Origin: Candidatus Schekmanbacteria bacterium
GTDB lineage: Bacteria; Schekmanbacteria; GWA2-38-11; J061
Assembly: GCA_016219965.1 (NCBI GenBank)
Contig: JACRJM010000010.1
Span: 62,001-126,000, forward strand
DNA length: 64,000 bases
Direction of reading: 5' to 3'
Shown here: piece after piece, positions 39,818-64,000 of the stretch
Layout of the letters: every line of letters begins with the position of its first letter
Numbering within the stretch: the first letter of the stretch is position 1
Notes under the pieces: model-generated
The model's input: only the letters and a program-made list of their open reading frames with translations
What the model was told of the DNA's origin: nothing
Database searches by the model: none
Translations under genes and position numbers: made by a program

Positions 39818-39892
39818 TAATATATGGCTTGGCAGTTCCCGCGGCAGGCACCTGCTGTTCAGTGCCAGAGCGGGACTGGCAAGCCAATATTA
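39818..39892. repeat. Palindromic repeat, copy A (inverted orientation)
   Basis: The 60-bp unit is 39826-39885, flanked by TTAATAT and ATATTAA that extend the palindrome. Its 20-bp core (39847-39866) is the exact reverse complement of GGCACTGAACAGCAGGTGCC found in copies B and C. Outer arms TTGGCAGTTCCCGC and GCGGGACTGGCAA pair with one bulge. Confidence 0.88.
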
Positions 39893-43028: not shown

Positions 43029-43088
43029 GGCTTGCCTGTCCCTCTCTGGCACTGAACAGCAGGTGCCTGACGAGGGAACAGCCAAACC
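43029..43088. repeat. Palindromic repeat, copy B
   Basis: The core GGCACTGAACAGCAGGTGCC is at 43048-43067. Its own ends GGCAC and GTGCC pair. Outer arms CGGCTTGCCTGTCCCTC and GAGGGAACAGCCAAACCG pair with single-base differences. CCCTC/GAGGG here replaces CCCGC/GCGGG of copies A and C, a compensatory change. It lies between the two alcohol dehydrogenase genes. Confidence 0.88.
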
Positions 43089-43119: not shown

Positions 43120-44160
43120 ATGAAAACTGCGCGTTTTAGAGGGTTTGACAAAGGCTTCGTGATAGAAGAAGCGCCGAAACCGGAAATTTCTGATGACGAG
43201 GTACTTATCAGGGTAAAATGCTGTGCCATCTCAGGCACTGACACGTACCGCTTCAGAAAATATGACAAACCTGTAATAATGCCCTTCTCCGACGGGGACA
43301 CACCCGGGCACGAAGCAGCCGGAATTGTTGAAGCTAAAGGTAAATCGGTAAAAAAATTGCAGGAAGGCGACAGGGTTGTTGTTCAGCCTTTCTGGGGATG
43401 CGGCGTATGCGAAGAATGCAGAAAACTACGGGAAAACTTCTGCCCCCAAATAAAAGCATACGGGTTTCATGTTCCAGGAGTGTTTTCAGAATATATAAAA
43501 GCAAGAGAAGATATAGCCCTTAAATTCACTGAAAAGCTTAGTTTCGAGGAAGCTGTCCCAACGCACCATATGGCGGTAAATCTATACGGACTAAAATCCT
43601 CCGGCGTCAGCATAGGAAAAGGAACATCAGCAGCAGTTTTCGGAACAGGAAATTTAGGGCTACTGATGGTCATGCAGTTAAAAGCTTTAAATGTCTCGAA
43701 GATATTTGCAGTTGATATTGACCCGGCAAGACTAAAGCTTGCCTCAGAACTGGCAGGAAGCATTCCTGTAGATGCGAAAAATAACAATCCTGCAGAAATA
43801 ATTTTAAAAGAAACAGATGGGAAAGGAGTTGATGTATCTATCGAGCTTGCCGGCGGCAATGCGCCAACGATTGAGCCGGCTATCAAATCTACAAGAAAAG
43901 GGGGGGCCTTCATTGCGCTTGCTGTAAGAAATGAGGACAATACGATAAATTTCCGGCAGGTCTTAAGCAAAAGCCTGCGGGTACAGGGAGCATCAGCCCA
44001 CACTATTATTGAAATGAAAGAATCTTTAAGGATGATAGAAGAAGGTAAAGTTGAAACTGCCAGAATAATAACCCACAGATTTAGTCTTGAAGATGTAAAT
44101 AAAGCATTCAACCTGAGAATTGAAGATCCTTCCGCGCTTTATGTAACTGTCGAGATATAA
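43120..44160 (+). CDS. Zinc-dependent alcohol dehydrogenase, second of two
   Basis: A 346-residue MDR dehydrogenase. I take the ATG at 43120 (MKTARFRGFDKGF) because the longer frame from 43063 would be encoded by repeat B. MKT also matches the paralogue's start. Catalytic zinc region GHEAAGIVEAKG, structural zinc CGVCEECRKLRENFC, Rossmann AAVFGTGNLGLLMVMQLKAL. The first catalytic-zinc Cys region reads CCAISGTD rather than CGICGTE, so zinc binding or specificity may differ from the first copy. It ends one base before repeat C. Confidence 0.87.
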   Translation: MKTARFRGFDKGFVIEEAPKPEISDDEVLIRVKCCAISGTDTYRFRKYDKPVIMPFSDGDTPGHEAAGIVEAKGKSVKKLQEGDRVVVQPFWGCGVCEECRKLRENFCPQIKAYGFHVPGVFSEYIKAREDIALKFTEKLSFEEAVPTHHMAVNLYGLKSSGVSIGKGTSAAVFGTGNLGLLMVMQLKALNVSKIFAVDIDPARLKLASELAGSIPVDAKNNNPAEIILKETDGKGVDVSIELAGGNAPTIEPAIKSTRKGGAFIALAVRNEDNTINFRQVLSKSLRVQGASAHTIIEMKESLRMIEEGKVETARIITHRFSLEDVNKAFNLRIEDPSALYVTVEI

Positions 44161-44161
44161 G

Positions 44162-44228
44162 ACAGGCTTGTCAGTCCCGCTCTGGCACTGAACAGCAGGT
44201 GCCTGACGCGGAACCTGCCCAAGCCTGT
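44162..44228. repeat. Palindromic repeat, copy C
   Basis: Core GGCACTGAACAGCAGGTGCC at 44184-44203, in the same orientation as copy B. Outer arms begin ACAGGCTTG and end CAAGCCTGT, a perfect nine-base match, with CCCGC/GCGG inside. It follows the second alcohol dehydrogenase by one base. Confidence 0.88.
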
Positions 44229-49510: not shown

Positions 49511-50047
49511 ATGAATAAAATGGAAGTTTTTATATCGGAAAATGCCTTTCTCAGCATGGTTATTGCCGCAGTTGAAGTTTTTCGCAAGGAAACCTTAGGC
49601 ATACTTCTTGGCTACAGAAGTGAAAATTCTTTTATAGTTGAAAATGCCATAGCATATCAGAGCTGTGAAAGATACGCATCAGAGGTTGAAAGAAATCACA
49701 ATGCGCACCGAAGGATAGAGTATTTTCTGGAACACGTCAGAAGCCCTGCAAAGCTAATAGGCGATTTTCATTCACACACCCAGTTTGGTGATAACAAGGG
49801 GGGGTTTGTTCCCAGCAAGGAAGATATTGTGGAAATGAAGAATGGCGGAGTCTATTTCATAATCGAGATAAACAAGAGAGCCAAGTCACAGGTCTGGAAC
49901 TATAACCGCAATGGGACGATGTCAGGAACAGTGGGAGAATATTTTCTTAAAATCGCTGCATGGTATAGAGACGAGAATACTAACAACCCTGTTCTTGGAA
50001 AAATTTGCTGCCCCTTCGGATTAGGTTTTAACTGGAATTACATCTGA
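49511..50047 (+). CDS. JAMM/MPN-domain metalloprotease-like protein
   Basis: A 178-residue Mov34/MPN/PAD1-fold protein. The full JAMM set is visible: E27 (FRKETLGILLG), H87 and H89 (GDFHSHT), S102 and D105 (VPSKEDIV). These coordinate zinc in isopeptidases that cut ubiquitin-like or sulfur-carrier tails. No ubiquitin-like or ThiS/MoaD partner is beside it. The C-terminal 50 residues after the core are short and end in an aromatic run (FGLGFNWNYI). Confidence 0.83.
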   Translation: MNKMEVFISENAFLSMVIAAVEVFRKETLGILLGYRSENSFIVENAIAYQSCERYASEVERNHNAHRRIEYFLEHVRSPAKLIGDFHSHTQFGDNKGGFVPSKEDIVEMKNGGVYFIIEINKRAKSQVWNYNRNGTMSGTVGEYFLKIAAWYRDENTNNPVLGKICCPFGLGFNWNYI

Positions 50048-50069: not shown

Positions 50070-50267
50070 ATGAACAGTAAATGCTCTAACAAGGAAAAAA
50101 ACCTCGGCGATTGTACATGCACTTACTCTTGTGAGAAAAGAGGAATATGCTGTGAATGTATAGCATACCACCGCCGCAGAAAAGAAATACCCGGATGTTT
50201 TTTTTCTAAAGAAGGTGAGAAAACCTGGGACAGGTCTGTTGCCAATTTTATAAAAGACAATCAGTAA
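50070..50267 (+). CDS. DUF6485 Cys-rich small protein
   Basis: A 65-residue protein. Eight cysteines in the first 43 residues are arranged C-x9-C-x-C-x3-C-x6-CC-x-C and a later C before FF (CTCTYSCEKRGICCECIAYH, PGCFF). This matches DUF6485, a small presumably metal-binding family. Function unknown. It starts 22 bases after the JAMM gene and may share its transcript. Confidence 0.75.
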   Translation: MNSKCSNKEKNLGDCTCTYSCEKRGICCECIAYHRRRKEIPGCFFSKEGEKTWDRSVANFIKDNQ

Positions 50268-50723: not shown

Positions 50724-50921
50724 ATGCATTATCCACAACTTAACAACATACCAAGAAGCATTAAGGAAATTCTACCAGATGTAGCGCAGGAGATATACAG
50801 GGATGCCTACAACTTTGCATGGGAATATTATGCCGGAGATGATGAAAAATCACATAAGTATGCATGGAAAGCAGTACGCAGAAGCATTACGGAATTACTG
50901 CTTGAGATAAAATCTCATTGA
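50724..50921 (+). CDS. chaB: ChaB family protein
   Basis: A 65-residue protein closely following the ChaB pattern: NNIPRSIKEILPDVAQEIYRDAYNFAWEYY, then KSHKYAWKAVRRSI. ChaB was named for its neighbourhood to the cation antiporter ChaA, but its function is unclear; no chaA is here. AGGAGGGGG lies six bases before the ATG. It precedes the bilin reductase homologue by about 200 AT-rich bases. Confidence 0.85.
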   Translation: MHYPQLNNIPRSIKEILPDVAQEIYRDAYNFAWEYYAGDDEKSHKYAWKAVRRSITELLLEIKSH

Positions 50922-51125
50922 AGGGAAAATGGCTTTAACCTATGGATACGATATTTAAAATGTATCATTGTATTTTTTTAAAACTTGTTCTTATCTTGAT
51001 TTTTGTCCAATAAATTTCCTCAATTTACAAATCACAAACACTTCTTTACATTTTTTTCATAATAACTTTATATGCACACTATAATAATTACTATTATTTA
51101 ATTTTTTACAATTAGGAGATTGATC

Positions 51126-51836
51126 ATGACCCAGACAATGAAGCTTCGTTTCAATGAGATAGTGAAAAACCGCTTTTCTGCTCTGTATAATTTAAAGCCG
51201 ATTGAGATTGAAGATGACCTTAAATACATCAAGAAGGAAAAAGATGGGGCCACCATGGAGCATGTCTATGAAGCCTACTCTTGCGATAAGATAAAGAAGA
51301 TAAGGCTCGCGCAGCTGAATGCAGAAGGAGCCGTATATGTACGAAATGGCGTCATCGTCCCTGAAGATATCTACGACCTTCCAATTTTTTCCTATGATAT
51401 TGTCGAGTCTGTGAGAAGAACATTTGCAATACTTGACATAACCCCGTGGAGAAGAACAGAAGACTACATGAAAAAATATATTGAACCAATGAAACCGGTT
51501 TTTGAAAGCTGGCAGAATATCCCTAAAATAATAGAAGCAAAACAGGAATTATCAGAATGGGGAAGGGAATTTGAGTCTGGCTATAAGTTATACATACGCT
51601 GCGAGAAACAATATGAACCTGAAATAGAAGTAGCTTTTAATAAATATCTCGACCTTTACATCAGTTACCTCAAAGACGCAAAACCAATCACAGACCCTGC
51701 TGTAAAAAAAGAGATAGATGATTACAAAAAGCATTACCAGAAGGTATATCAGGAAAATGACCCGGGGAAAGGACCTGTAACTGTTTTCTTCGGACACGAC
51801 TGGGCTGAAAGGTTCTTCAAAGATTTCCCGTTTTAA
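51126..51836 (+). CDS. Ferredoxin-dependent bilin reductase (PcyA/HY2) family protein
   Basis: A 236-residue protein from the ATG at 51126 (AGGAG at 51114-51118). The family landmarks appear in order: IYDLPIFSYDIV (residues 82-93), FAILDITPW (100-108), LSEWGREFESGYKLYIR (142-158), KHYQKVYQENDPGKG (202-216) and FFGHDWAERFFKDFPF (221-236). D91 aligns with the catalytic Asp105 of Synechocystis PcyA. The His88 position appears to be N74, and the H74/E76 pair is not kept. Relatives reduce biliverdin to phytobilins with ferredoxin. No heme oxygenase, phytochrome or phycobiliprotein gene is in the window, so substrate and role are open. Confidence 0.8.
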   Translation: MTQTMKLRFNEIVKNRFSALYNLKPIEIEDDLKYIKKEKDGATMEHVYEAYSCDKIKKIRLAQLNAEGAVYVRNGVIVPEDIYDLPIFSYDIVESVRRTFAILDITPWRRTEDYMKKYIEPMKPVFESWQNIPKIIEAKQELSEWGREFESGYKLYIRCEKQYEPEIEVAFNKYLDLYISYLKDAKPITDPAVKKEIDDYKKHYQKVYQENDPGKGPVTVFFGHDWAERFFKDFPF

Positions 51837-51855: not shown

Positions 51856-52284
51856 CTATTTGCCGGGAGCAAGGCATTTCTTAAGGGTGTTTTTTTCGCC
51901 CTCGTTTGAAAGCATGAACAGCGCCTCATCAGCAGAGATCCACTCGGCATGAGCTATGTTCAAATTGCTTGTAGCCCGCGATGGGACAAATTCAAAGAGG
52001 AAAAAATATATCTTCTTTAAAATCCTTACGGGATTTCCGGTTTTGGTTTTATTAGAGTACCAGTATATCCGGTCTTCCACTTTCTTTTTAAGAACTGCAT
52101 TGACTCCTGTTTTTTCCCGCAGTGCCCTTAAAGCACAAGCTTCTACAGTTTCCCCTGCAAGAAGCTTATCTCTCGGGAAAAACCACTTTTCCCCCGGAGA
52201 CTTTACAAGAAGCACAAATGTTCCCAGTGCGCTGTCCTTATGAAGGACAATACACTCAGCATAAATTTCTTTGACAGTAATCAA
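51856..52284 (-). CDS. Nudix-fold protein with degenerate Nudix box
   Basis: A 142-residue Nudix-fold protein. The box region is KLLAGETVEACALRALREKTG (residues 40-60). Against G-x5-E-x7-R-E-U-x-E-E-x-G-U it keeps the first E, the R and one E. It has A where the RE glutamate belongs and K58 where the last metal-binding E belongs. The flanking PRDK replaces the usual PKG. Catalysis as a pyrophosphohydrolase may be lost or changed. It converges with the bilin reductase gene, 19 bases apart. Confidence 0.75.
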   Translation of the reverse strand: MITVKEIYAECIVLHKDSALGTFVLLVKSPGEKWFFPRDKLLAGETVEACALRALREKTGVNAVLKKKVEDRIYWYSNKTKTGNPVRILKKIYFFLFEFVPSRATSNLNIAHAEWISADEALFMLSNEGEKNTLKKCLAPGK

Positions 52285-52310: not shown

Positions 52311-52919
52311 CTAGCTCTCCCAGACTGCAAGGACTTCGCCAGAGCTCCTCACTTCGCCGAAATTGGTGTTTATATTTTCAAGAGCTGACTCGTGTTGTTT
52401 TGCGTCATATGATGCCGTGAGGTCTTTAACCACTATTGCATAAAAGCCTCTCATGAAGGCATCGCGGACAGTTGTCTCAACACAGACATTGGTCGCACAG
52501 CCTGTTGCAATTATGGTTTTTATCCCCATCGAGTTTAAAGTTGCCTCAAATGGAGTATTGAAGAATGCACTGTATGCAGTCTTGGGAGATATGATATCAG
52601 TCTGTTCAGGCTTGATGCAAAGCTCCCCTGCCCATTCGTCCATAGAATTGTCTTTTAGAATTTGAGCCTTTCCATTTCTCACTATTATCTCTCTTGCAGT
52701 AGGAGACTTTTTAAAAGCAGTAACATCCTGTTTAATGAAAATCACTGGAACATTATATTTTCTCGCAGTGCGGAGAAACTTTTCAATGGGCGACACAATC
52801 CCTGATGTCAAAGGCTTTAATTCTCCTGAGCAGAAAATATTCTGTACATCCACCACGATAACTGCGGTATGCACAGGCGCTATTTTTTCTTCAAACGAGG
52901 GGCAGCCAAATTCATCCAT
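52311..52919 (-). CDS. Isochorismatase-family cysteine hydrolase
   Basis: A 202-residue protein. Predicted triad: D24 (VIVVDVQNIFC), K113 (ISPKTAYSAFFNTPF) and C146 (GCATNVCVETTVRDAFMRGF). The C-x-x-x-x-C spacing and R before DA are standard. Family members hydrolyse nicotinamide, ureidoacrylate or isochorismate; which one is not clear. It lies 26 bases upstream of the Nudix gene on the same strand, so it may share a nucleotide/NAD-related unit with it. Confidence 0.85.
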   Translation of the reverse strand: MDEFGCPSFEEKIAPVHTAVIVVDVQNIFCSGELKPLTSGIVSPIEKFLRTARKYNVPVIFIKQDVTAFKKSPTAREIIVRNGKAQILKDNSMDEWAGELCIKPEQTDIISPKTAYSAFFNTPFEATLNSMGIKTIIATGCATNVCVETTVRDAFMRGFYAIVVKDLTASYDAKQHESALENINTNFGEVRSSGEVLAVWES

Positions 52920-56363: not shown

Positions 56364-57500
56364 TTACCCCCAGACACCGGGAATCGGTCGTTTGCAGAAC
56401 TTGCACTTTCCACCTTCAATCGAAACATCCGTGATGTAAAAACCAACCCTGCCAATTATTTTCTTTTTGCACTGAGGACAGTAGGTGTTTTCCCCCGGGT
56501 GCCCCGGAACATTGCCTACATAAGGAAAGTTCAAGCCAAAAGCCATAGCAGTGTTTCTTGCCATCTCAAGTGTTGAGACAGGGGTTACAGGAAGATTCTT
56601 TATTTTATAAGTTGGATGGAACTGTGTAAAATGAATAGGTACATCTGTGCCAAGATTCGTTTTTATCCACGAACACATCTGCCTTATCTCTGCCGGCGAA
56701 TCATTGAGCGTCGGGATAAGAAGCACAACTATCTCAAACCAGATTCTACTCTGCTTTAAAAGCTTTAATGTTTCAAGGACAGGCTTAAGTTCAGCACTAC
56801 ATGTGTCCTTGTAAAATTTTTCCGTAAACCCCTTGAGGTCTATTTTGACGGCTCCCAAGTGTTTGCAAAGTTCCTGCATCGGCTCCTTTTCAATGAAGCC
56901 GTTTGATATCATAACGGTTTTTATTCCTGTCTTTTTCCCAAGCACAGCGATGTCGTGGACATATTCGTAAAAAACGACCGGCTCGGAATATGTACAGGCA
57001 ATGGAGCGGGCGCCCTGTTTTGCCGCCTCTTTGTGGACATCATCCGGGGTGAGATAAACGCTTTCAACCTGCTCTGGTCGGAACTGGGCTATCTCCCAGT
57101 TCTGGCAAAACTTGCATTCAACATTGCATCCCGCAGTGGCAAGTGAAAATGCCGTAGTTGCCGGCAGATAATGGAAAAGAGGTTTTTTTTCTATCGGGTC
57201 TGTATGAATCGCGCATGGTCTTGAATATACTAAACTGTAATAAGTGCCGCCATGATTTTCCTTGTTGCCGCAGTAGCCGCGCTCCATATCTGCAATCCTG
57301 CATTTTCGCGGACACACCAGGCATTCTACACGAAGCTGGTCGATTTTCTTATAATACATGCACTCTTTAAGAGAGCGATTTCCCCCTGCTGCCGTCTCGC
57401 CTGCTTCAGATAAGAGAAGGATAGGATTCGAAGCAATATCACCTGCGGCAAATATACAGCCGCCTGCAACTGCACATTTTATGAACCTGCGTCTGTCCAT
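56364..57500 (-). CDS. amrS: AmmeMemoRadiSam system radical SAM enzyme (AmrS) with Tat-like signal
   Basis: A 378-residue protein. N-terminus MDRRRFIKCAVAGGCIFAAG looks like a twin-arginine signal. The radical SAM cluster is C125-x3-C129-x2-C132 (CNVECKFCQNW). Upstream Cys pairs (ECLVCPRKCRIADMERGYCGNKEN) and LFHYLPATTAFSLATAGCN are AmrS-specific. A C-terminal Zn-ribbon-like CPQCKKK ... CKFCKRP closes the protein. It is last in the minus-strand AmmeMemoRadiSam operon. Exporting a radical SAM enzyme is unusual since SAM and low-potential electrons are cytoplasmic; the predicted Tat signal should be tested. Confidence 0.85.
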   Translation of the reverse strand: MDRRRFIKCAVAGGCIFAAGDIASNPILLLSEAGETAAGGNRSLKECMYYKKIDQLRVECLVCPRKCRIADMERGYCGNKENHGGTYYSLVYSRPCAIHTDPIEKKPLFHYLPATTAFSLATAGCNVECKFCQNWEIAQFRPEQVESVYLTPDDVHKEAAKQGARSIACTYSEPVVFYEYVHDIAVLGKKTGIKTVMISNGFIEKEPMQELCKHLGAVKIDLKGFTEKFYKDTCSAELKPVLETLKLLKQSRIWFEIVVLLIPTLNDSPAEIRQMCSWIKTNLGTDVPIHFTQFHPTYKIKNLPVTPVSTLEMARNTAMAFGLNFPYVGNVPGHPGENTYCPQCKKKIIGRVGFYITDVSIEGGKCKFCKRPIPGVWG

Positions 57501-57567
57501 GTTTTATAAGATAGCCCTTTGGAAAGGATTTTTCAATTTGGGATGAGGACGCTGTCTTTCTAAATAA

Positions 57568-58623
57568 TCATGAAACTATCTTTATCCGGCTTTTATCAAA
57601 AACTCCAAGCCCCATATCTCCTGCTGTTTCTATATATTTAGGGTCGCGCTTTTCTTCGGCAAAGGGCTTAAGCCCTGCTGCTCTGCGCTTTTCAGTAATT
57701 ATGTCGAAGCCTATGCGGTCTATCGCCACAGGATCCTCCGAAACAAGTATGCCGTTAAAATCCCATGTCCATTGCGGCTTATAAGATGGACCTCCCTGAA
57801 ACTGCGCAGTGGTACCATCACAGACTATGAGCCGGACTTTGTCCTTTATAAGTGGGTGCATGTTAAGCTCTGCCACATAGGGATTGCATGCATTGTCATG
57901 ATATTTGTTGGGATTGTGAATAGCTCCGTAAAAATTCTTCATCCCCAGCGAGACACCGGCAAGGTCATGGTCTTTCAGCACCGGAATATTTATTATGGTG
58001 CCGCATCTTTCTGAAAGTATCCTGCTGAAACAGCTTCCAACGGAACCGCTCATTCTTGGCTCCGGTTCATAGAGATTATTTGTTCCGAAACAGAGAACAT
58101 CATTTCCTTTGCGGTTTACCGTAAACCCTGCACGAATAAGGTCATCATCTGTCCTGTCCCAGACAATTATCCTCTCCCGCTCTATCCCGGCAGATTGAAG
58201 GCTTGATATCACTGCTTCTACAAGTTCCCTGCTTGATGAGAGCCCCCGTCCTGCAAGGCAATTGACTTTTATGCCTATTGTATCAGTGCCGGGGAAAAGT
58301 GACTTTAATACATCGCGGGGGTCAGTAACCCCAAAAATCTTTTTGATACTTTCATCAAACATAGAGCGGAGAACATCGCCTCGGAGCTCTCCGTTTTTGT
58401 CTCTAATGTCACCCCGTTTTGAAACTGCGACAACAGGCTTTTTTTGGATTTTAGGTGTGCTTCTGAGAACCGTGCCGCTCTCACCAGAGGGGTTTATCTT
58501 ATTATTGATCTTATTAATAAGAGTATCAAAAATGGATTCTGCGGAACTTATATTTTTAAGAAGACTTGCAATAAAACCGGCGCTGATCCCTGCAGTAACC
58601 TTAACGAATTTCCTTCTCTTCAT
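57568..58623 (-). CDS. DUF362 protein with Tat-like signal in the AmmeMemoRadiSam operon
   Basis: A 351-residue protein; N-terminus MKRRKFVKVTAGISAGFIASL is Tat-like. The domain shows IGIKVNCLAGRGLSSS near residue 120, IIVWDRTDDDLIRAGF, IINIPVLKDHDLAGVSLGMKNFYGAI near residue 212 and DPVAIDRIGFDII. It is homologous to the DUF362 protein at 48339-49415. It begins five bases after the Memo-AMMECR1 gene and is followed at 67 bases by amrS, so it is embedded in that operon. Confidence 0.85.
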   Translation of the reverse strand: MKRRKFVKVTAGISAGFIASLLKNISSAESIFDTLINKINNKINPSGESGTVLRSTPKIQKKPVVAVSKRGDIRDKNGELRGDVLRSMFDESIKKIFGVTDPRDVLKSLFPGTDTIGIKVNCLAGRGLSSSRELVEAVISSLQSAGIERERIIVWDRTDDDLIRAGFTVNRKGNDVLCFGTNNLYEPEPRMSGSVGSCFSRILSERCGTIINIPVLKDHDLAGVSLGMKNFYGAIHNPNKYHDNACNPYVAELNMHPLIKDKVRLIVCDGTTAQFQGGPSYKPQWTWDFNGILVSEDPVAIDRIGFDIITEKRRAAGLKPFAEEKRDPKYIETAGDMGLGVFDKSRIKIVS

Positions 58624-58628
58624 TTTGC

Positions 58629-60173
58629 TTATTTCTCATGCTCTGAAAAAACCTGTGCTTCGAACTTCATTATCTTCGCACCTGACTTCCATGCATCGGA
58701 AGGCAATCCTGCCTTGGCACAGAGTTGTCTTAAAAAAGTATCACGGTCCCATCCATATTCAACCGGCACCTGCGGAAGGAGAAGCCCCCTGCTCCACCCT
58801 TTCTCGATTATCAGCCCGTCTCTGCCAACTTCTATTTCAGAAACATTAGCAACCGGGACAGGTACAGTGAGCACCGATATTTCGATATCACAATCTTTTT
58901 CCTCAGATGATTTCATAGGCTCAAAACGCGGATCCCTCGTGGAAGCATTAATTGCATTATCAACAATGGTTTCGTAGAGAGGTTTTATTCCTTCAACATA
59001 ACCGATGCATCCTCTAAGCATGCCGTGTTTTGTTATCGTCACGAAAGCGCCGCGTTTTTGTTTGAGCTTATCAGATACATTGAAATTATTTATGAAGGAC
59101 TTATCTACGCTTTCTCCTTTGAGATAACGGCGCAATGTCGCCCTTGCTAAATCAAGCAGCATCTTCTTTTCATCAGTATTTAGTTTTAATCCATCCACCA
59201 CTTCACCTCCTGTTAAAGCTTTTTTATAAACTTTTTTATAAAATAGAACCGTTGCATAACTTACACTGCTTTTGAAATCACCCGTAACATCTCCTGACGT
59301 ATAATAGGAAACAAGTTCCCCCTTGCAATCAGCCGGAAGAATTCTCGTCAGTATTGCGATTGGAGCTCTGCCGCATATAGTCACTCCTGTATCAGTGAAA
59401 TACTTTATAAAGCCATCAGAGTCTTTTGCGATTATTTTTTCAACCGCACCCATATCAAGTTTCTTTAGATTCTCTTTAACCGGTTCACCAAAAGGGACAT
59501 AATTAAAATTAGGTCCATAATGGGTAAAATCAGAACTCGCTATCAGCAACGTCCTGCTGTCAACAAAAGGTTTTATGGCCTCTGCAAGTTCATCATACTC
59601 ACTGCCGCCCACATCACCGACAAGGAGTGGGACTATCTTAAAATCCTTTAGCACTGTTTGAAGGAAAGGAATTTGGATCTCTATGGAATGTTCCTGTCTG
59701 TTTGCCTCAAGGTTTGATGAAAACCCTTTTTTCTTTAAAAGCGCATCGCATGTCTGCCGGTCAACACTCGCTCTTCCCAATGGTGTTTCAAAGTAATCAA
59801 CAGGGGCAATGGCAATCCCTCTAAAATAGGAATAATGGGAAGGTGCAATTATTATTACCCTGTCATAGCTTTTGCCGGAAAGATAACTATAACCCGCAGC
59901 AGCACCCTTGCCTGAATATACATAGCCTGCATGCGGCTCTATGAGCGCGACAGGCTCTGTCTCTTCCTTTTTTAAACTGCTACTGCCCGTATTGGAAAGA
60001 AGATAGGAATTTATATTTTTAGCAAGTGTTTGAAAATCTGCCGGATACCAGGAGCCTGCAAGCGCCGATGGTCTAACAGTTGGCTCACTCTTCTCAGTCT
60101 GGGCTTTTGCACAGGAAGGAGAAACAAACAAAAGAAGAAACATGACAGCAACAGCTTTAATTAACTGCTTCAT
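58629..60173 (-). CDS. Exported AmmeMemoRadiSam protein: Memo (AmrB) fused to AMMECR1 (AmrA)
   Basis: A 514-residue fusion. Residues 1-25 are a Sec-type signal (hydrophobic core, then SPSCAKA). The Memo domain spans about 33-310, with the metal-site His in EPHAGYVYSG (H81), APSHYSYFRG (H113), EHSIEIQIPFLQ (H162) and SSDFTHYG (H218). The AMMECR1 domain spans about 330-510, with LRGCIGYV at 386-393 and DPRFEPM. In many genomes these are separate genes; the fusion supports joint function. The reaction of this system is not established to my knowledge. It heads the three-gene operon with DUF362 and amrS. Confidence 0.88.
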   Translation of the reverse strand: MKQLIKAVAVMFLLLFVSPSCAKAQTEKSEPTVRPSALAGSWYPADFQTLAKNINSYLLSNTGSSSLKKEETEPVALIEPHAGYVYSGKGAAAGYSYLSGKSYDRVIIIAPSHYSYFRGIAIAPVDYFETPLGRASVDRQTCDALLKKKGFSSNLEANRQEHSIEIQIPFLQTVLKDFKIVPLLVGDVGGSEYDELAEAIKPFVDSRTLLIASSDFTHYGPNFNYVPFGEPVKENLKKLDMGAVEKIIAKDSDGFIKYFTDTGVTICGRAPIAILTRILPADCKGELVSYYTSGDVTGDFKSSVSYATVLFYKKVYKKALTGGEVVDGLKLNTDEKKMLLDLARATLRRYLKGESVDKSFINNFNVSDKLKQKRGAFVTITKHGMLRGCIGYVEGIKPLYETIVDNAINASTRDPRFEPMKSSEEKDCDIEISVLTVPVPVANVSEIEVGRDGLIIEKGWSRGLLLPQVPVEYGWDRDTFLRQLCAKAGLPSDAWKSGAKIMKFEAQVFSEHEK

Positions 60174-61883: not shown

Positions 61884-62471
61884 TTACTGCAGAGAAAGGT
61901 TAATGGCTTCGCTTTCTAAAAACTCAAGAAGTATTGATGAGAGAGTCTTGTAAAATTGGCATGAAGCATTTTTGCAAATCTTATCCTTAAGCATCGGCAC
62001 CCATTTGAGAAGATGCTCCTTGAGGAAAGCACTCTCAGCAGACAAGAGCTTTTCAACCTTCTTTTTATTATTTTTCTGGTACAACAATTTTTCCTCCTCT
62101 TCACAAAGGCAAGCCATGAAGGCGAGCTCCAAGCCTATGTGGTCAGGAGGTCCATTATACTTCGCTGCATAGTTAAACTTAAACCGGCAATAGAATTGCT
62201 TTACATTTATAGTGGATTCCCCCCAAAGTCTGCTGCTTCCATTTCTGAAAACAGACTCATAAGGTGTCACATAGGATTTGTAGGGGATTCTGAACAGCCG
62301 CTGGTATTCCTGTACAAGCTCACTTTTTGAATCTGTTTCAAGCTCCGGAACAAATTCCTTTACGGCAGCGATAAACTCTTCATCAGGTGGCTCAAGAAAT
62401 GCCCTTGCAAAAAAGGCATAGAATGAGTTTCGGTTTGCTGTTTCTTCCTTCACCAGGGTGTTATGTTCCAA
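61884..62471 (-). CDS. TorD/DmsD-family molybdoenzyme chaperone
   Basis: A 195-residue all-helical protein. SFYAFFARAFLEPPDEEFIAAV, ELVQEYQRLFRIP, YVTPYESVFRNGSSRLWG and PDHIGLELAFMACLCEEEE are the TorD/NarJ family pattern. It should bind the signal peptide of the molybdopterin subunit encoded upstream and guard its maturation. Its first 22 bases overlap the end of the ferredoxin gene, so translation is probably coupled. Confidence 0.88.
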   Translation of the reverse strand: MEHNTLVKEETANRNSFYAFFARAFLEPPDEEFIAAVKEFVPELETDSKSELVQEYQRLFRIPYKSYVTPYESVFRNGSSRLWGESTINVKQFYCRFKFNYAAKYNGPPDHIGLELAFMACLCEEEEKLLYQKNNKKKVEKLLSAESAFLKEHLLKWVPMLKDKICKNASCQFYKTLSSILLEFLESEAINLSLQ

Positions 62472-63037
62472 TCGTCACTCCCCCATTCAAATGTCACAGA
62501 AGGATTGGTATGTTTTCTGTCTGAAAATTTGACAGGTGCTTCACCGGTATTCCCCACATCTTCACCAAAGCTGAGAGCTTTTCCTATGCAGGTGTTTGCA
62601 CAGGCAGGCTTAAGCCCTGTGAGACTCGTACGCCCGGAATCAAGCACTCTGTGAACGCAAAATGTGCATTTTTCAACCTTGCCGGTCTCGCTGTTAAACT
62701 GCGGAGCGCTATAAGGGCAAACCTTTGCGCAGTACTTACAACCTATGCACTTGTCCTGATCAATAAGCACTATCCCGAAATTGTCATCCTTTGATATGGC
62801 GCCAACAGGGCACGACTTAAGGCAAGCAGGTTCGTCACAGTGGAAGCAGGACATCGTCACAAAGAGTCTCTTGGGGGCAGACTCGTCTCCTCCCTGCTTT
62901 TCAATCACCTGCCTGTACCTTGCACCTTTATTAGTATTCAATTCAGCATTGCATGCCATGGCACATGCCCTGCATCCTACACACTTCCCTAAATTTATGG
63001 TCCATCCGAGCTGGCTCATACTTATCTCTCCTTTCAA
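62450..63037 (-). CDS. Four-cluster ferredoxin subunit (DmsB/PhsB/TtrB-like)
   Basis: A 195-residue protein of the NrfC/DmsB family. Cluster motifs: CVGCRACAMAC near residue 14, CFHCDEPACLKSCPVGAI near residue 61, CIGCKYCAKVCPYSAP near residue 93 and KCTFCVHRV, closing with ACANTCIGKAL. It carries electrons to the molybdopterin subunit. No Tat signal is visible; it would be co-exported with its partner. It starts 13 bases after the molybdopterin gene stop. Confidence 0.93.
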   Translation of the reverse strand: MKGEISMSQLGWTINLGKCVGCRACAMACNAELNTNKGARYRQVIEKQGGDESAPKRLFVTMSCFHCDEPACLKSCPVGAISKDDNFGIVLIDQDKCIGCKYCAKVCPYSAPQFNSETGKVEKCTFCVHRVLDSGRTSLTGLKPACANTCIGKALSFGEDVGNTGEAPVKFSDRKHTNPSVTFEWGSDDWNITPW

Positions 63038-63050
63038 TTTATTTTAATAA

Positions 63051-64000
63051 TCATATAGCTTTTTCAACTTTGACCTTGCTTATATAGAAACATGCCTGCC
63101 CTGAAATAGGGTCTGTCAGGCATGTATCTGCAAAATCCGGATCACCCCTCTGCACAAGATTTCCGTTCGGACCTGCTCCTATCTTGGCGTTATAGTCTGT
63201 GGCAGTGCTTCCAACAGTATAAGGCTGCGAGCCAAACCATTCCCTGCCGAAGTGATGGTCAACAACAACTGATTTTGCCCTAAGCCCTGCAATTACCCTA
63301 ACTTTCCCTTTTATGCTGCTGCCATTTGGAGATGATATTTCAACTATGTCTCCGGTCAGGACTCCGAGTTCGGCAGCATCGCTTGTATTGAGATATACAA
63401 ATCCCTCAGGCTGAATCTCAAGCGCCCATTCATTGCTTGTTGACCTAGACTGGGTATGCCATGCCCTTTTATATGTACTTAGAGTATATTCATATTCGGT
63501 ATCATCTATTTCCGCCCCCTTAAGTCCGACGTATGGCTCCTCCCATAAAGGCACTCCCGAATATTCTTCACCGCTAAATGCGTTCTTATAGTGGGCAACC
63601 TTCTCGCAGAATATATTTATCAGGTCGCCGTACTTATTCTTGACCCAGCCTGTAGCGCTTGAGTCTTCAACCTGTGCAGGGTTTTCCCATCTGCCTGCCA
63701 TTTGTATATATTCAACAGAACTGTCGCCCGGAACACCGGTTGCTCCTTCATCGCCAAGCCCCGATGAGAAATCTCCAAGCTTTAAAACTTCATCCCAGAT
63801 CTGATAAGCAGTATCAAGGTTCTTCCCTGTCCCCATTCCATCTGCCCCGAAGTTTGGAAGGTCGAGGAGCTTTGCCATCTGGACGAGCTGTTCATCATAA
63901 GGCATTGGTCCGCTCCATGCTGCAAGGAGCTCTGCTGCTGTGGCAAAGGAACTTCCCGTCAAAGTGGCATCTGCAGGCACATATATCCGCGCAGACCTTC
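63051..64000 (-). CDS. Molybdopterin oxidoreductase catalytic subunit, C-terminal part, cut by window edge
   Basis: The frame is open to the window's right edge, so only the C-terminal 315 codons are seen. The final 150 residues form the MGD-binding domain: RSTSNEWALEIQPEGFVYLNTSDAAELGVLTGDIVEISSPNG and VIAGLRAKSVVVDHHFGREWFGSQPY. The gene order (catalytic subunit, FeS subunit, TorD chaperone) matches thiosulfate-, tetrathionate- or polysulfide-reductase type operons. The N-terminal half with the metal-binding residue is missing, so the substrate cannot be called. Confidence 0.82.
   Translation of the reverse strand, partial: RSARIYVPADATLTGSSFATAAELLAAWSGPMPYDEQLVQMAKLLDLPNFGADGMGTGKNLDTAYQIWDEVLKLGDFSSGLGDEGATGVPGDSSVEYIQMAGRWENPAQVEDSSATGWVKNKYGDLINIFCEKVAHYKNAFSGEEYSGVPLWEEPYVGLKGAEIDDTEYEYTLSTYKRAWHTQSRSTSNEWALEIQPEGFVYLNTSDAAELGVLTGDIVEISSPNGSSIKGKVRVIAGLRAKSVVVDHHFGREWFGSQPYTVGSTATDYNAKIGAGPNGNLVQRGDPDFADTCLTDPISGQACFYISKVKVEKAI

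Follow-up and report, generated by a model that had tools for sequence, protein, structure and literature searches.

Multiple homologues of ferredoxin-dependent bilin reductases in Candidatus Schekmanbacteria without recognised bilin-pathway partner genes

The pigments of phycobilisomes and of plant phytochromes are made by ferredoxin-dependent bilin reductases (FDBRs). Recent work places the origin of this family in heterotrophic bacteria, on the basis of gene clusters that also code for heme oxygenase (HO) and bilin-binding globins. According to PMC10151467, Glu76 is required for 18-vinyl reduction, and a pre-2 enzyme, which has Asn at the His88 position and lacks Glu76, reduces the A-ring. 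In GtPEBB, a phycoerythrobilin:ferredoxin oxidoreductase, both Asp residues are essential for the enzyme (PMC6755814). A plant member of the superfamily is red chlorophyll catabolite reductase (RCCR). FDBR/RCCR-like sequences of Ca. Schekmanbacteria were already mentioned in 2023, in the main text as an outgroup only (PMC10151467).

We analysed a stretch of 64,000 nucleotides (here called the window) from a Ca. Schekmanbacteria genome of 3.58 Mb (98% complete), which carries an FDBR-family gene. What is unusual about this gene is the size and spread of its family in the phylum, together with the absence of every known bilin-pathway partner that was tested.

Sequence, fold and active site of the window protein

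The gene and its surroundings are annotated as follows.

49511..50047, forward strand: Prok-JAB domain protein, part of a conserved block, with 74% identity to its counterpart in the sister genus (G001)
50070..50267, forward strand: DUF6485 small cysteine-rich protein of the same conserved block
50724..50921, forward strand: ChaB-family small protein (PF06150, 1e-12)
51056..51085, forward strand: candidate promoter of the FDBR gene's own, TTCATA-18-TATAAT, about 40 bp ahead of its start (consensus match only, 22% GC spacer)
51126..51836, forward strand: FDBR-family (PF05996) gene of 236 codons, with the active-site set Asn74/Asp91/Asp212 and Tyr208 at the GtPEBB Arg215 position
51856..52284, reverse strand: Nudix protein, its gene in convergent orientation to that of the FDBR
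52311..52919, reverse strand: isochorismatase-family protein, with a homologue near FDBR genes in G001 too

The reading frame starts with ATG, with AGGAG a short way ahead of it. An earlier note on this DNA had called its product a bilin reductase homologue, and the profile search confirms this: PF05996 is matched from position 4 to 227 of 228 (E = 1.4e-42, 146 bits), far above the curated cut-off of 31 bits, while the RCCR profile PF06405 does not match the protein. Among the solved relatives, GtPEBB ranks first by sequence (8.8e-23), followed by PebA (2.8e-14) and PcyA (about 4e-13); identity to cyanobacterial PebB and PebA is 21-29%. The window protein and its ortholog from the sister genus share 72% identity; dN is 0.22 while synonymous sites are saturated, and the protein is thus under purifying selection. 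Phage origin was rejected, as relatives from phages and viral contigs are only 20-28% identical, and a plasmid link was likewise rejected, the plasmid relatives being cyanobacterial peb genes only.

An AlphaFold2 model, for which 37 sequences were aligned, has a mean pLDDT of 90.7 and a pTM of 0.88. Superposition of this model, which the earlier note had proposed as a check, revealed the FDBR alpha/beta/alpha fold. The best PDB match is the bilin-bound GtPEBB-dihydrobiliverdin complex (2.6e-16, TM 0.86), followed by PcyA (TM about 0.77), PebA (TM 0.79), HY2 and RCCR (TM 0.68-0.76); coproporphyrinogen III oxidase is a faint, remoter match.

In the alignment with reference FDBRs, Asn74 of the window protein corresponds to PcyA His88 and Asp91 to PcyA Asp105, while Arg60 and Ala62 occupy the positions of PcyA His74 and Glu76. 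Thus, the residues had been read correctly from the sequence, with the catalytic Asp kept, His88 changed to Asn and the His74/Glu76 pair lost. However, the change at His88 cannot be counted as unusual, because every PebA, PebB and pre-2 sequence compared has Asn at this position and lacks His74 and Glu76, and the PcyA His/Glu pair is missing from every non-PcyA member compared. The helix-loop Asp (PebS Asp206, GtPEBB Asp219) is retained as Asp212. In one group 1 orthologue pair (G002, G003), the Asn74 position is occupied by Thr.

As Glu76 is missing, the window protein is predicted not to make phycocyanobilin. A-ring reduction of the PebB/HY2 type is probably also to be discounted, because Tyr208 stands in place of Arg215, an essential residue characteristic of PebB and HY2. 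This second prediction is the weaker one, since the pre-2-like sequence compared is also without the Arg (it has His at this position), yet a pre-2 enzyme reduces the A-ring.

By alignment and model, the window protein is an FDBR-superfamily enzyme whose FDBR active site is intact. Within the FDBR/RCCR superfamily, it is probably a reductase that depends on ferredoxin and acts on an open-chain tetrapyrrole of unrecognised source; ferredoxin dependence, the tetrapyrrole substrate and the two-electron outcome are what we infer for it. The tetrapyrrole would bind in the usual FDBR pocket and be reduced by single electrons from ferredoxin, with protons provided by Asp91 on the sheet side and by a water held by Asp212 on the helix side.

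Gene neighbourhood and the search for bilin-pathway partners

The order JAB, DUF6485, ChaB, FDBR on one strand is found in the window genome and in the sister genus, with a gap of 205-241 bp between the ChaB and FDBR genes. In G002 and G003, the orthologue is found instead beside genes for a TPR protein and a FecR-like protein, names that were read from sequence. The operon that had been claimed, with ChaB, Nudix and isochorismatase genes, therefore stands only in part: in two genera the ChaB gene precedes the FDBR gene on its own strand, while an operon with the Nudix and isochorismatase genes is ruled out by their location on the opposite strand. The conserved neighbours JAB, DUF6485 and ChaB are without a link to tetrapyrroles, which counts against a tetrapyrrole role, and no ferredoxin gene was found beside the FDBR gene.

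Several other features of the window were annotated. RNA elements and tRNAs were not found within it. An AmmeMemoRadiSam system (56364-60173, reverse strand) consists of a radical SAM enzyme (TIGR04337) and a fused A+B protein (AMMECR1 + MEMO1), the two genes being separated by a gene for a DUF362-like Tat protein (57568-58623). A 60-nt interspersed repeat with the core GGCACCTGCTGTTCAGTG occurs in three copies (39826-39892, 43029-43088 and 44158-44222), which surround a molybdopterin-oxidoreductase-like gene and two alcohol-dehydrogenase-like genes; a 20-nt form of this core is absent from all other loci examined. At the window edge (61884-63980, reverse strand), genes for a TorD-like chaperone, a 4Fe-4S subunit and a molybdopterin-oxidoreductase-like protein were assigned from the sequence only.

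Bilin-pathway genes were sought by targeted family searches in the window genome and in three related Ca. Schekmanbacteria genomes. A profile search for heme oxygenase (PF01126) gave no match in any of the four genomes, even at E <= 10; V4R (PF02830) and the phytochrome PHY domain had no match, and phycobilisome-type globins (PF00502) gave nothing above chance. Among the neighbours of the window gene, a B12-binding gene was not encountered. Applied to known FDBR clusters, these searches do succeed: beside a myxobacterial pre-3-like FDBR they detected HO (3.9e-54), V4R (1.3e-15) and a phycobiliprotein-like globin (2.8e-21), and adjacent to a pre-2-like FDBR a B12-binding gene. The earlier note had inferred for the window that heme oxygenase, globin and phytochrome genes are missing; for HO, phycobilisome-type globins and phytochromes, this holds for the whole genome and for three relatives. 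That neither a bilin source nor a bilin-binding partner was found counts against the tetrapyrrole reduction proposed above. That the organism is called non-photosynthetic rests on the gene content of the window, the absence of PF00502 globins and general knowledge of the phylum.

A tetrapyrrole pathway exists in these bacteria, as HemC was found in three of the four genomes, and COX1 in all four means that a lack of oxygen is no obvious reason for the missing HO. Anaerobic heme degradation by ChuW/HutW was considered as a bilin source and rejected; the best match in the window genome, below the cut-off of that model, is HemW and scores above HemW's own cut-off. If the window protein reduces a tetrapyrrole as proposed, the bilin would either be scavenged or be made by a ring-opening enzyme that escapes the PF01126 and ChuW/HutW models.

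It is conceivable, though we doubt it, that the window protein is an ordinary biliverdin reductase of the pre-PcyA type, supplied by a divergent HO (an unrecognised HO, an IsdG-like enzyme or another). Its active site resembles that of pre-2 (Asn, Asp, Asp), the presence of COX1 suggests oxygen use and hence the possibility of an O2-dependent HO, and the main text of PMC10151467 reports both that HO proteins can diverge beyond alignment and that biliverdin is reduced by pre-2, pre-3 and, weakly, pre-1 enzymes. However, the PF01126 model that performs so well beside the myxobacterial pre-3 gives no signal in four genomes, the BBAG/V4R cluster genes are all missing, and phylogenetic trees (see below) keep the window protein apart from pre-PcyA.

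The paralogous family in Ca. Schekmanbacteria

The window genome has eight PF05996 genes, seven of which are over the curated cut-off while the eighth is slightly under it (28.8 bits). The earlier note missed this more surprising fact. Such genes number 12, 3 and 3 in the three relatives, the last of these genomes being only 70% complete. Among 386 sampled genomes, only four others have PF05996 genes, with a single copy each, and of 195 genomes sampled in the phylum around G031, probably Myxococcota, no more than 3 have a match, again one each.

Two proteins from other genomes are divergent. In G442, the gene for a PF05996 protein (2.2e-8; L174, 1483-2196, reverse strand) has a neighbour in divergent orientation, whose product weakly matches an oxidoreductase NAD-binding domain. 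In G248, from the G031 phylum, a very divergent FDBR-like protein (L134, 1477-2202, forward strand) matches PF05996 with its N-terminal half only (6.4e-5); it retains the Asp105 position and has Arg at the Asp206 position.

The Ca. Schekmanbacteria copies fall into about 10 ortholog groups, located between the bilin reductases and plant RCCR. The group of the window protein is present in all four genomes, with three copies in G001, and the window gene is one of eight paralogues, which probably diversified within Ca. Schekmanbacteria. For display, the tree was rooted on groups 4, 5, 6, 8 and 9, which is the side where plant RCCR falls (94/91 in a separate tree). With this rooting, the canonical FDBRs form a clade (98/97), the window group sits between the outgroup and this clade, and pre-2 joins PcyA/AX (99/98), leaving the window protein outside the PcyA branch; pre-1 was absent from the trees and pre-3 was included in one only. 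Uniting the window clade and the canonical FDBRs in one clade was not rejected by the AU test (p = 0.127), and the exact branching near the root is therefore not fixed.

Active sites vary between the groups. The Asp105 position is occupied by Glu in groups 4, 7 and 10, as it is in plant RCCR, and several paralogues have lost the catalytic Asp and have Asn or Tyr instead. A profile of the divergent groups matches HY2 (1.4e-16) and RCCR (about 1e-6) in the PDB, and some paralogues have weak PF06405 matches below the cut-off.

The gene contexts also differ. In group 4, the FDBR gene and a gene for a NIR_SIR/4Fe-4S protein form a two-gene arrangement, with a gap of 20-50 bp, that is conserved in two genera:

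L011, 8502-10142, reverse strand: group 4 FDBR paired with NIR_SIR plus 4Fe-4S protein
L026, 1361-3001, reverse strand: the same pair

The NIR_SIR/4Fe-4S protein may be a built-in electron donor for this FDBR. Conserved neighbours are an SDR and a DUF169 protein for group 6, and a geranylgeranyl-reductase-like flavoprotein, an amidohydrolase and two membrane proteins for group 8; in three genomes, an MFS transporter gene lies next to the group 2 FDBR gene. At one locus (L014, 6623-9058, forward strand), the group 8 FDBR gene starts 4 bp past an sdhA-like gene, and in G001 a flavoprotein gene homologous to the latter adjoins a different FDBR paralogue, of group 5. As several paralogue groups have neighbours of their own, the contexts point to several separate redox roles rather than to one pathway.

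The RCCR-type Glu, the profile matches to HY2, RCCR and PF06405, the transporter beside group 2 and the geranylgeranyl-reductase-like flavoprotein beside group 8 would all fit a catabolic family, in which the paralogues, like plant RCCR, reduce different tetrapyrroles scavenged from decaying biomass; chlorophyll catabolites, phycobilins and heme breakdown products would be tentative substrates. We nevertheless regard this as somewhat unlikely, because recognised ring-opening or uptake genes were not found, the groups mostly share no common neighbours, and RCCR joins one Ca. Schekmanbacteria group only weakly (86/60) and on a long branch.

The fold might also have been reused in this phylum for a conjugated substrate that is not a tetrapyrrole. 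No tetrapyrrole theme runs through the contexts of the paralogues (SDR, DUF169, O-methyltransferase, SdhA, amidohydrolase), and the loss of the catalytic Asp in several of them would agree with this. We consider it very unlikely for the window protein, which keeps the full FDBR set and has a model closest to bilin-bound GtPEBB. We know of no member of the FDBR/RCCR superfamily with a non-tetrapyrrole substrate.

If the window protein and its paralogues do reduce open-chain tetrapyrroles, it is an unlikely speculation that they belong to a new tetrapyrrole branch, whose starting compound, a linear tetrapyrrole that does not come from HO, is processed by up to a dozen specialised ferredoxin-dependent reductases. 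A novel ring opening or an oxidised bilane might, with as little certainty, be the source. It is similarly speculative that this set forms a bridge from the reductases of bilins to those of chlorophyll catabolites and perhaps comes close to the superfamily's ancestral state.

In summary, Ca. Schekmanbacteria have the largest FDBR-like gene sets among the genomes examined, with no recognised HO or globin partners. What the paralogues reduce bears on whether the first members of the superfamily were reductases of biliverdin, reductases of chlorophyll or heme catabolites, or enzymes of another kind; the paralogues could also yield reductases with new regiospecificity.

Comparison with known systems

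The sequences of Rockwell et al. (PMC10151467) come from the same phylum and superfamily and were placed, as an outgroup, between FDBRs and RCCRs; the window gene very probably belongs to this set. The main text of PMC10151467 presents them without copy number, active-site survey, gene context or HO search; nor does that main text describe ortholog groups, active sites of both FDBR and RCCR type, or a missing HO.

The pre-PcyA proteins (pre-1, pre-2, pre-3), as presented in the main text of PMC10151467, are, like the window protein, FDBRs of non-photosynthetic bacteria, and pre-2 shares with it the Asn at His88, the Asp at Asp105 and the lack of Glu76. The window protein differs in having no globin/BBAG, V4R or HO partner, in having many paralogues and in its position outside the PcyA branch; membership in a pre-PcyA cluster, where a globin/BBAG gene stands with genes for V4R, an Fe-S protein, HO or a B12-binding protein, was rejected, as none of the partner genes searched for was found. 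PcyA itself has the fold and the Asp105 equivalent in common with the window protein, which is without His74, Glu76 and His88, residues tied to PcyA catalysis and phycocyanobilin synthesis. Plant RCCR has the superfamily fold, and its Glu at the Asp105 position is shared by some paralogues, whereas the window protein has Asp91 at this position and scores with PF05996 rather than PF06405. Compared to PebB/GtPEBB and PebA, the window protein occurs in another organism and another context, without phycobilisome-type globin or recognised HO, but it shares with them the family, the fold and the equivalents of Arg60, Asn74, Asp91 and Asp212.
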